Below the pieces are notes generated by a model, which saw only the letters and a list, made by a program, of their open reading frames with translations, searched no databases and was not told where the DNA came from. A DNA stretch of 64,000 nt from Deinococcales bacterium (GTDB taxonomy: Bacteria; Deinococcota; Deinococci; Deinococcales; JAAFIG01): NCBI GenBank assembly GCA_013298595.1, contig JAAFIG010000001.1, forward strand, positions 249,056 to 313,055, in the 5' to 3' direction. This document shows positions 28,006 to 30,070 of the stretch, piece by piece; within the stretch, counting starts at the first letter, position 1, and each line of letters begins with the position of its first letter. The translations under genes were made by a program, and so were the position numbers.

Positions 28006-29079
28006 TTATTTTGCCGCTGCCACTTGTTGCACTCGGCGCATCCGCACGGCTGCGGCTAAGTTCTCGAGCACCAGCACAGTATCATCCCAGTTAATACAGG
28101 CATCTGTAACCGATACACCGTACTCGAGGGGTTTATTAGGCATAATATCTTGGCGACCTGCGTGTAAGTGGCTTTCGAGCATTAAACCAATAATGCGGGT
28201 GTCGCCATTGGCAATTTGTTCGGCGATATTGGCAGAGACTGGTATTTGATTTTCGTGTTTTTTACTCGAGTTACCATGCGAAGCATCGATCATTAAACGA
28301 GCAGCTAAGCCTGCTTTAGCAATTTCCTGACATGCCGATTCAACGTTCTTAGCATCGTAATTGGGTTCTTTGCCGCCACGTAAAATCACATGGCAATCTT
28401 CGTTACCACCTGTGGAAACAATCGCACTATGCCCGCCTTTAGTGACAGATAAAAAACTATGTGGCTGCGAGGAGGATTTAATAGCATCCACCGTAATTTT
28501 AATATTGCCATCGGTGCCATTCTTAAAACCAACAGGGCAACTTAAACCACTGGCAAGTTCGCGGTGCACTTGGCTTTCGGTGGTTCGAGCACCAATTGCT
28601 CCCCAGGCAATCAAATCCGCAATGTACTGCGGCGAAATTGTATCGAGGTATTCGGTTGCAGCTGGCATACCTAATTCATTAATCTCGAGCAGCAATTCTC
28701 GAGCTACACGCAAACCATTGTTAATATCAAAGCTGCCATCGAGTTTAGGGTCGTTAATAAGACCTTTCCAACCGACTGTGGTGCGTGGTTTTTCAAAATA
28801 GACGCGCATGACAATTTCCAGGTCTGAATGCAAACGCTTTTTGATCTCGAGGAGTTTATGAGCGTACTCGAGGGCTGCTTTAGTATCATGAATCGAGCAA
28901 GGTCCAACCACAACCATGACGCGGTCATCCATACCATGCAGAATGCGATGCGATGCTTGCCGTGAATCAAAGACTGTATTGGCTGCATTTTCGGTCACAG
29001 CAAATTCTCGCATGACATGGGTTGGTGGCACGAGTTCTTGGATTGCTTTGATTCGTAAGTCATCTGTTCGGTGTGGCAT
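28006..29079 (-). CDS. aroG: 3-deoxy-7-phosphoheptulonate (DAHP) synthase, class I
   Basis: The 357-residue enzyme condenses phosphoenolpyruvate with erythrose 4-phosphate, the entry step of the shikimate pathway. Motifs: Gly-Pro-Cys-Ser-Ile-His-Asp near 60, Glu-Lys-Pro-Arg-Thr-Thr-Val-Gly-Trp-Lys-Gly near 90, and Asp-Ala-Ser-His-Gly-Asn-Ser near 265, all typical of the AroF/G/H group. ATG 29079 follows AAGGAG; a TTG at 29097 lies inside the terminator tract. The 5' region holds an apparent aromatic leader peptide and attenuator. Confidence 0.95.
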   Translation of the reverse strand: MPHRTDDLRIKAIQELVPPTHVMREFAVTENAANTVFDSRQASHRILHGMDDRVMVVVGPCSIHDTKAALEYAHKLLEIKKRLHSDLEIVMRVYFEKPRTTVGWKGLINDPKLDGSFDINNGLRVARELLLEINELGMPAATEYLDTISPQYIADLIAWGAIGARTTESQVHRELASGLSCPVGFKNGTDGNIKITVDAIKSSSQPHSFLSVTKGGHSAIVSTGGNEDCHVILRGGKEPNYDAKNVESACQEIAKAGLAARLMIDASHGNSSKKHENQIPVSANIAEQIANGDTRIIGLMLESHLHAGRQDIMPNKPLEYGVSVTDACINWDDTVLVLENLAAAVRMRRVQQVAAAK

Positions 29080-29095
29080 AAGCTCCTTTTTCCAC

Positions 29096-29125
29096 AAAAA
29101 AACCGCCGATTAGTTCGGCGGTTTT
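29096..29125 (-). terminator. Terminator (attenuator) before the DAHP synthase gene
   Basis: On the minus strand an 11-bp stem with a 5-nt loop ends in seven T, only about 17 nt before the aroG start. No promoter fits downstream of it, so aroG transcripts must read through it. Its 5' arm CCGCCG (29116-29121) can instead pair with CGGCGG at 29159-29164. Confidence 0.82.
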
Positions 29126-29142
29126 CTAGGGTATCAAAACGA

Positions 29143-29178
29143 TTTTACGTCCCCTCAGCCGCCGTGTCTGGGGTAAAA
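29143..29178 (-). promoter_or_regulatory. Leader hairpin (1:2 pairing) of the aroG attenuator
   Basis: On the minus strand TTTTACCCCAG (29178-29168) pairs imperfectly with CTGAGGGGACGTAAAA (29158-29143). The loop carries CGGCGG (29159-29164), which is complementary to the terminator 5' arm. The first arm overlaps the Tyr-Phe-Thr-Pro codons of the leader peptide, so a stalled ribosome would free the loop sequence. Confidence 0.65.
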
Positions 29179-29210
29179 TAGATGCTAAAAAACGGCGAAC
29201 GTGAACGCAT
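29145..29210 (-). CDS. Aromatic-rich leader peptide of aroG (21 residues)
   Basis: Read leftward from ATG 29210, the frame encodes 21 residues, Met-Arg-Ser-Arg-Ser-Pro followed by Phe-Phe-Ser-Ile-Tyr-Phe-Thr-Pro, and stops at 29145. Three Phe and one Tyr in six codons, placed directly over the first arm of a leader hairpin upstream of a DAHP synthase, is the arrangement of ribosome-mediated attenuators such as pheL. A TATAAC box ends 7 nt before the ATG, so the leader may be leaderless. Confidence 0.65.
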   Translation of the reverse strand: MRSRSPFFSIYFTPDTAAEGT

Positions 29211-29217
29211 GGCAAAA

Positions 29218-29247
29218 GTTATACAGCTTGGTATACCAAAATTGCAA
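29218..29247 (-). promoter_or_regulatory. Promoter for the aroG leader
   Basis: On the minus strand TTGCAA (29247-29242) and TATAAC (29223-29218) are separated by 18 bp, placing transcription start near the leader peptide ATG at 29210. Confidence 0.5.
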
Positions 29248-29440
29248 GTGCCTGTTCTCAGTTCTCAAGCCGCAAAGTCAGCAAACTCGTTGATTGACAC
29301 GATTAAACGTCCGACTTTTGTACAATGCGAACATGAAGTTAGTCCCTACAGGAAACGATTTTTAATGTAGTGATCGCCCAATCTGCAATGGCAAAAGCAC
29401 TAAATATGTGCCCTAAAATAGGACTTTGCCGTTGCCCTGT
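29248..29440. other. Spacer without a recognised gene
   Basis: The 190 bp between the aroG leader promoter and the deaminase stop show no convincing coding frame. A loose long-range stem is possible in 29389-29436. A rightward 62-codon frame (29182-29370) overlaps the aroG leader in antisense and is not accepted. Confidence 0.5.
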
Positions 29441-30070
29441 TTAGTTCTCGAGCGAAGCTGCTAAGGAATTAAGAACCGTTTTTGCATCGGCTCGAGCATT
29501 AACCAGTTGACGAATACTGCCTGAATCAAAAGCAGATAATGCTAATGTCGCTGCTTTAGGAAAGGTTTTTTCATGACTTTCCACAGCACTTAAACCAAAA
29601 TCTGCGACAAGGTAAGCATGCAGCAACAAGGTTAAAGAAATATTTTCTAGTATTGCGTTTTGTACAGGGTAAACGGTAATACCTCGAGAAATATACGGAT
29701 GTTTTTGTAACAACTCTGCGGTACCTGATGATTGTGCTCGAGCCGCATAATGGACATTTTCAACGTGCATCATGCGAATAGCGCCAGCGCATAATGGGCA
29801 TGGCTCGAGGGTTGTGTAGAGATGAACATTTTGTCCATCAAGATCGTCTGGGAGTTGTATCAATGCATTCAGTTCGGCATGTGCCAATGAATTTCCTGCA
29901 ATGTACTGATTAATGCCATACATTTCACTGATGCGATTGCGCCCAGTAGCAATGATTTCGTTCTCTTGAATCACCACTACTCCAATTGGTAGCGAACCAG
30001 CGCAGTTTGCTTCCCAAGCTTGGGTAAACGCAGCTTGCCACGGTAATGCTAAAGTGTCCCAAAAACTCAC
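29441..30070 (-). CDS. Nucleoside/nucleotide deaminase family protein
   Basis: The 209-residue protein has the cytidine-deaminase-like zinc site: His-Ala-Glu-Leu-Asn-Ala near 64 and Glu-Pro-Cys-Pro-Leu-Cys-Ala-Gly-Ala near 88-96. It is longer than TadA (about 150-165 residues), and the extra C-terminal helical region of about 55 residues is not seen in TadA, so a guanine or other nucleoside deaminase is as likely. The GTG start overlaps the stop of the GGDEF gene (GTGA). Confidence 0.82.
   Translation of the reverse strand: MSFWDTLALPWQAAFTQAWEANCAGSLPIGVVVIQENEIIATGRNRISEMYGINQYIAGNSLAHAELNALIQLPDDLDGQNVHLYTTLEPCPLCAGAIRMMHVENVHYAARAQSSGTAELLQKHPYISRGITVYPVQNAILENISLTLLLHAYLVADFGLSAVESHEKTFPKAATLALSAFDSGSIRQLVNARADAKTVLNSLAASLEN

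Follow-up and report, generated by a model that had tools for sequence, protein, structure and literature searches.

A probable Phe/Tyr leader-peptide attenuator before aroG in a Deinococcales bacterium and its counterparts in Proteobacteria

The leader region of aroG

We analysed a stretch of 64 kb of DNA from a Deinococcales bacterium, here called the window, in which the DAHP synthase gene aroG is preceded by the following features.

29441-30070, minus strand: deaminase-like gene upstream of the leader
29242-29247, minus strand: -35-like hexamer TTGCAA of a leader promoter predicted from the sequence
29228-29239, no strand: perfect palindrome TTGGTATACCAA in the spacer of the two promoter hexamers, a possible operator
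29218-29223, minus strand: predicted -10-like hexamer TATAAC, 7 nt upstream of the leader ATG
29210-29145, minus strand: leader peptide ORF of 21 codons, MRSRSPFFSIYFTPDTAAEGT, with Phe7, Phe8, Tyr11 and Phe12
29143-29178, minus strand: 1:2 hairpin TTTTACCCC/GGGGACGTAAAA, overlapping the 3' end of the leader ORF
29159-29164, minus strand: CGGCGG, the antiterminator strand, which repeats the terminator 3' arm and shows three-strand covariation in 37 sequences
29116-29158, minus strand: remainder of the predicted antiterminator hairpin, with CU/AG and AGGG/CCCU helices and CCGCCG pairing with 29164-29159
29096-29125, minus strand: intrinsic terminator AAAACCGCCG-AACTAAT-CGGCGGTTTT followed by a T-run
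28006-29079, minus strand: aroG, type I-alpha DAHP synthase (NCBIfam NF006723)

The gene product matches NF006723, the AroG equivalog, at 574.6 bits (cut-off 568), and AAGGAG (29088-29083) lies in front of the gene. The 21-codon frame and the terminator that an earlier note had described before aroG are where it placed them, on the minus strand. The ORF runs from an ATG at 29210 to a TAA stop codon (29147-29145), its aromatic run Phe7-Phe8-Ser-Ile-Tyr11-Phe12 contains three Phe codons and one Tyr codon, and the strong terminator is 16 nt from the aroG ATG at 29079. The fold z-score is -2.1.

The predicted leader promoter has a spacer of 18 nt between TTGCAA and TATAAC. The same spacing is found in two relatives, G001 and G002, with -35-like hexamers TTGCAT and TTGCAA and -10-like hexamers TATAAA and TACAGT, respectively. 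A strict consensus promoter scan did not list TATAAC, because it has no T at hexamer position 6. No Shine-Dalgarno sequence is present upstream of the leader ATG and the -10-like box is only 7 nt away, and we therefore expect a leaderless mRNA. The palindrome TTGGTATACCAA occurs once in the window, against 0.28 matches expected; its arms TTGGT/ACCAA are present in G001 and missing in G002, and it is possibly a repressor site on top of attenuation. Another promoter-like pair, weak (9 of 12) and about as frequent as chance predicts, lies at 29170-29142; from it, transcription could begin beyond the aromatic codons.

How often such an arrangement occurs by chance was gauged with a strict terminator search on the contig of the window, which is 313 kb long. 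Among 50 terminators, only two have an upstream short ORF with four F, Y or W in six residues; one is the aroG leader and the other, VVLGSRFSWFFQKPPSL, lies on the minus strand of contig C1 about 91 kb outside the window. As a separate observation on the composition of the window, CTCGAG is present in 347 copies, against 6 expected from dinucleotide shuffles (examples at 28063-28068 and 28684-28703). This highly iterated palindrome resembles HIP1 of cyanobacteria and is likewise common in loci of the relatives G003 and G012.

Conservation of the element

We examined 111 genomes of the order, a set that class- and phylum-wide searches reproduced identically and outside which further groups of the phylum may fall. 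A type I-alpha DAHP synthase is encoded in seven of them, and an aromatic leader and a terminator precede the gene in all seven. The AroG proteins of G001 and G002 are 86% and 74% identical to that of the window; their leaders, MRSRSPFYAYFFTPESAAEGT and MCNRSPFYAYFYGTHPAVKAA, are both exactly 21 codons long and keep the aromatic cluster, in which most substitutions leave the Phe/Tyr richness equal or higher. Terminator stems in the window and these two relatives read CCGCCG/CGGCGG, CCCGCCG/CGGCGGG and GCCGCCGG/CCGGCGGC, with compensated changes, and the genes upstream of the element are different in G001 and G002. Missing conservation of the aromatic codons had been set as a possible refutation; they are kept in these genomes, as are the stems.

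Four genomes have native leaders of other sequence, MQITSNYFHAYWFGFPPGRR (G003), MTGTVYFAGYRLG (G009), MQTTYYFYFAAHPTRVSA (G012) and MKPTNASVFYAEYWLG (G110), each followed by a terminator. They make up a second group of aromatic leaders, with the runs YYFYF, YFHAYWF, YFAGY and FYAEYW, in front of native type I-alpha genes (L084, L085, L086 and L093). None of six copies checked of the type I-beta (chorismate mutase-fused) DAHP synthase, in six genomes of this order, has an aromatic leader, type II DAHP synthases are absent among the 111 genomes, and no aromatic leader was found for pheA in the window's family.

The AroG of Burkholderia is 74% identical to that of the window, and in a set of 80 proteobacterial aroG loci (L002-L081) an aromatic leader of the same layout was found at about 50. 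Examples are MSAKFYFYFFWYLRPLADREG in Burkholderia, MKFASPAFYFYFYGFLKPLAEEGTRAV in Bordetella, MITVATSYFWYFSYDSSLAAGGSRSI in Bradyrhizobium and MNASCRSFYFWYYGFPMPLAEEGSRSP in Xanthomonas. Most enterobacterial aroG genes in the set are without a clear leader; E. coli aroG is controlled by TyrR. We built a covariance model, R1, from 46 proteobacterial leaders with the window's group excluded. R1 matched the window element over its full length (39.2 bits, E 8.7e-10), and the aroG leader was its sole match in the window's genome at E<=0.01. G001 and G002 scored 32.3 and 34.9 bits, and the native leaders of G003, G009, G012 and G110 went unmatched. In Buttiauxella the best match was the pheM leader before pheST, which controls Phe-tRNA synthetase, not DAHP synthase; as this leader scores 42.6 bits, R1 recognises a kind of element as well as a lineage.

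Searches of the window and the other tested aroG loci against Rfam, at gathering and relaxed thresholds, brought no family to its cut-off, and the window element matched no curated model of a T-box or other riboswitch. Phe_leader (RF01859) aligned with the window element over its full length at 22 bits, below the cut-off of 55 that marks membership; what this weak match has in common with it is a Phe-rich leader ORF and a terminator/antiterminator arrangement. The known members of Phe_leader control genes other than aroG. We found no description of a cross-phylum or proteobacterial aroG leader family in the open-access literature searched. The family is apparently conserved from Proteobacteria to a Deinococcota relative and undescribed in Rfam and in that literature.

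An apparently leaderless peptide start had been thought odd for an attenuator, and the comparison shows that it is not. A Shine-Dalgarno sequence within reach is missing from 55 of 56 aroG leaders as against 15 of 56 aroG starts, and the leader-peptide mRNA of Sinorhizobium meliloti trpL is leaderless and starts at its ATG (PMC7298713). The window's group and several others show a plain -10 box directly before the leader; Burkholderia does not, its -10-like TATAAA being about 36 nt further upstream. What is general is therefore the missing Shine-Dalgarno sequence, not leaderlessness. Over all leaders, a -10 box right before the start was not more frequent than in shuffles.

The window's own genome also has a WWW leader without a Shine-Dalgarno sequence behind a -10-like box, before trpE. 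W-rich trpE leaders were found in four genomes: MKRICANWWWQLV (window's genome, G000; L170, about 1198-1239), MQRVRTNWWWQLG (G001; L169, about 1275-1320), MSFRSVNTGWWWFR (G003; L171) and the shorter MRTKSQQWWPS (G002; L172). These leaders, with WWW or WW, have a -10-like box shortly upstream and a terminator downstream, and lack a Shine-Dalgarno sequence. Since trpE too has W-rich leaders, leader-peptide attenuation without a Shine-Dalgarno sequence looks, judged by sequence, general in the window's lineage.

Alternative pairings and their covariation

The CGGCGG strand in the leader (29164-29159) duplicates the terminator 3' arm and is able to pair with the 5' arm CCGCCG. The two pairings had been proposed to exclude each other, and covariation of all three strands in 37 sequences bears this out. 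The antiterminator is paired in 93.1% of cells, with a covariation score that none of 500 shuffles and none of the slid controls reached; the terminator is paired in 98.8% of cells, with compensatory changes in three pairs. Antiterminator strands pair as CGGCGG/CCGCCG, TCGGCGG/CCGCCGA, CCGGCGG/CCGCCGG and GAGGCGG/CCGCCTC, and joint change of the three strands is seen in GAGGCGG/CCGCCTC/GAGGCGG and CCGGCGG/CCGCCGG/CCGGCGG. The leader strand reads CTGGCGG in most Proteobacteria, within P-L-A-E codons, and CGGCGG in the window. A universal segment 1, formed by a CGCC near the leader start and the antiterminator strand, was also considered; it is clear in Burkholderia and the window and not general.

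Folding was also predicted for nascent RNA that ends at the terminator loop and is partly blocked by a ribosome. A ribosome at Phe7 or Phe12 gave a predicted antiterminator of about -18 kcal/mol, including a second helix, AGGG/CCCU, and with a ribosome at the stop codon the antiterminator was predicted to be unable to form. Of the 1:2 hairpin in the earlier note, the position (29178-29143), with CGGCGG in the loop, stands, and its TTTAC/GTAAA is kept in G001 and G002, but it is only one of several predicted partners of the strand. It is partly predicted once upstream codons are blocked; without a ribosome, RNAfold favours a longer hairpin between the 5' part of the leader ORF and the CGGCGG strand. 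For the full-length RNA, equilibrium folding favours the terminator over the antiterminator even when a stalled ribosome is included; the switch must therefore depend on kinetics, as it does in known attenuators.

Probable attenuation of aroG and origin of the element

Very probably, the element is a classical ribosome-mediated attenuator of transcription, through which the supply of Phe (and Tyr) determines how strongly aroG is expressed. Conservation in relatives and Proteobacteria strongly supports leader-peptide attenuation by Phe/Tyr, as it had been suggested. A short ORF rich in codons for products of the pathway lies upstream of the structural gene and is conserved in relatives, an intrinsic terminator stands between this ORF and the gene, and prediction and covariation identify an exclusive antiterminator strand that a finishing ribosome would cover. 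In the mechanism that we propose, transcription would begin at the leader ATG or right beside it, and a ribosome would load on the leaderless 5' end. With charged tRNA-Phe and tRNA-Tyr plentiful, translation would reach the stop codon (29147-29145) and the ribosome would cover CGGCGG (29164-29159); the later CCGCCG would then pair with the terminator 3' arm, and transcription would halt before aroG. When Phe or Tyr is short, the ribosome would stall at codon 7, 8, 11 or 12 and leave CGGCGG free to pair with CCGCCG once this is made, so that no terminator would form and aroG would be transcribed.

Attenuation of a DAHP synthase gene had been presumed new for this kind of bacterium. The kind is already known, because both the aroR-aroF locus of Corynebacterium glutamicum and predictions in Vibrio and Thermus exist. 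In C. glutamicum, an attenuator with the leader peptide AroR (Phe-Tyr-Phe) was predicted before the DAHP synthase gene aroF (PMC4046766), and it responds to Phe limitation and is insensitive to Tyr according to the account of Neshat 2014 given in PMC11802643. The likeness, a Phe/Tyr leader peptide before a DAHP synthase gene, is one of architecture only; the phylum is another, and the window leader, with three Phe codons and one Tyr codon, contrasts with the Tyr insensitivity of aroR-aroF. Attenuators were also predicted before aroA-I/tyrA operons of Vibrio and Thermus (Merino database; PMC1173090 Table 7). These operons begin with a DAHP synthase gene, but the predictions are computed structures without a described leader peptide, and in Thermus (aroA-I-beta > tyrA) the DAHP synthase is of the other type.

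Other functions for the same features have to be weighed against ribosome-mediated attenuation. The deaminase-like gene (29441-30070) shares the strand of the element, and about 316 nt separate its end from the terminator, which might merely end its transcripts, with the short ORF an accident; however, a promoter-like pair and the ORF intervene, the element stays while upstream genes change in G001 and G002, and conservation across phyla extends to the length of the ORF, its aromatic codons and the antiterminator strand, all of which makes such a role highly improbable. A terminator with an alternative pairing would equally suit a leader that senses a ligand or an RNA-binding protein without ribosome stalling, the ORF being incidental. 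What is conserved outside the stems, however, is an in-frame run of Phe/Tyr/Trp codons and no folded sensor domain, and no riboswitch or T-box of Rfam matches; we give this explanation very little credence. The leader RNA or peptide might also act in trans, besides or instead of in cis, like rnTrpL and peTrpL of Sinorhizobium (PMC7298713). The window element, as predicted here, shares with S. meliloti trpL a leaderless leader-peptide mRNA in a transcription attenuator, its transcripts ending at a terminator. The trpL system differs in its Trp codons, its target trpE(G) and the trans roles shown in Sinorhizobium, and the peptide of the aroG leader drifts fast outside the aromatic run; a trans role here seems very unlikely.

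The preferred reading, attenuation in cis, would hold irrespective of where the leader came from. In a maximum-likelihood tree, the AroG proteins of the window, G001 and G002 nest within proteobacterial AroG, beside that of an Anaerolineae MAG, and those of G003, G009, G012 and G110 form a separate clade. By this tree and NCBIfam, the R1 element in the window precedes a type I-alpha AroG that falls in one clade with the genes whose leaders define R1. Because the tree puts the window gene inside Proteobacteria, leader and gene probably came together by horizontal transfer.

Local evolution of the window leader, which would leave the mechanism the same, is rather unlikely. In its favour, the native aroG genes of G003, G009, G012 and G110 have aromatic leaders of their own, which indicates that such leaders arise or persist easily, and with the pheM leader at 42.6 bits a score of 39 bits alone is no proof of descent. 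Against it stand the nesting of the window, G001 and G002 inside proteobacterial AroG genes, the failure of R1 on native leaders while these three match, and the close similarity of the antiterminator motif and the terminator sequence to those of Proteobacteria; tree, unmatched native leaders and stem sequences, taken together, argue for common descent. On the wider proposal our judgement is evenly divided: that a self-contained aromatic attenuator without a Shine-Dalgarno sequence travels with aroG between phyla as a regulated cassette, and belongs to an unnamed RNA element family that over half of the examined proteobacterial aroG genes have in front of them. The route would lead from Proteobacteria to a Deinococcota relative and perhaps also to Chloroflexota. 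As RNA polymerase, ribosomes and tRNA would be all that such a cassette requires, it could work in a new host.

The synthesis of all aromatic amino acids begins with DAHP synthase, and the element is probably a common, apparently uncatalogued control of this step in many Proteobacteria. With about 50 of 80 loci and seemingly no Rfam family, the proteobacterial aroG leader is a good candidate for a new one. The leader peptides add a conserved group without Shine-Dalgarno sequences and bear on how translation starts directly behind the polymerase in attenuators. The occurrence in the window suggests that a regulatory RNA moved into a distant phylum together with its gene.
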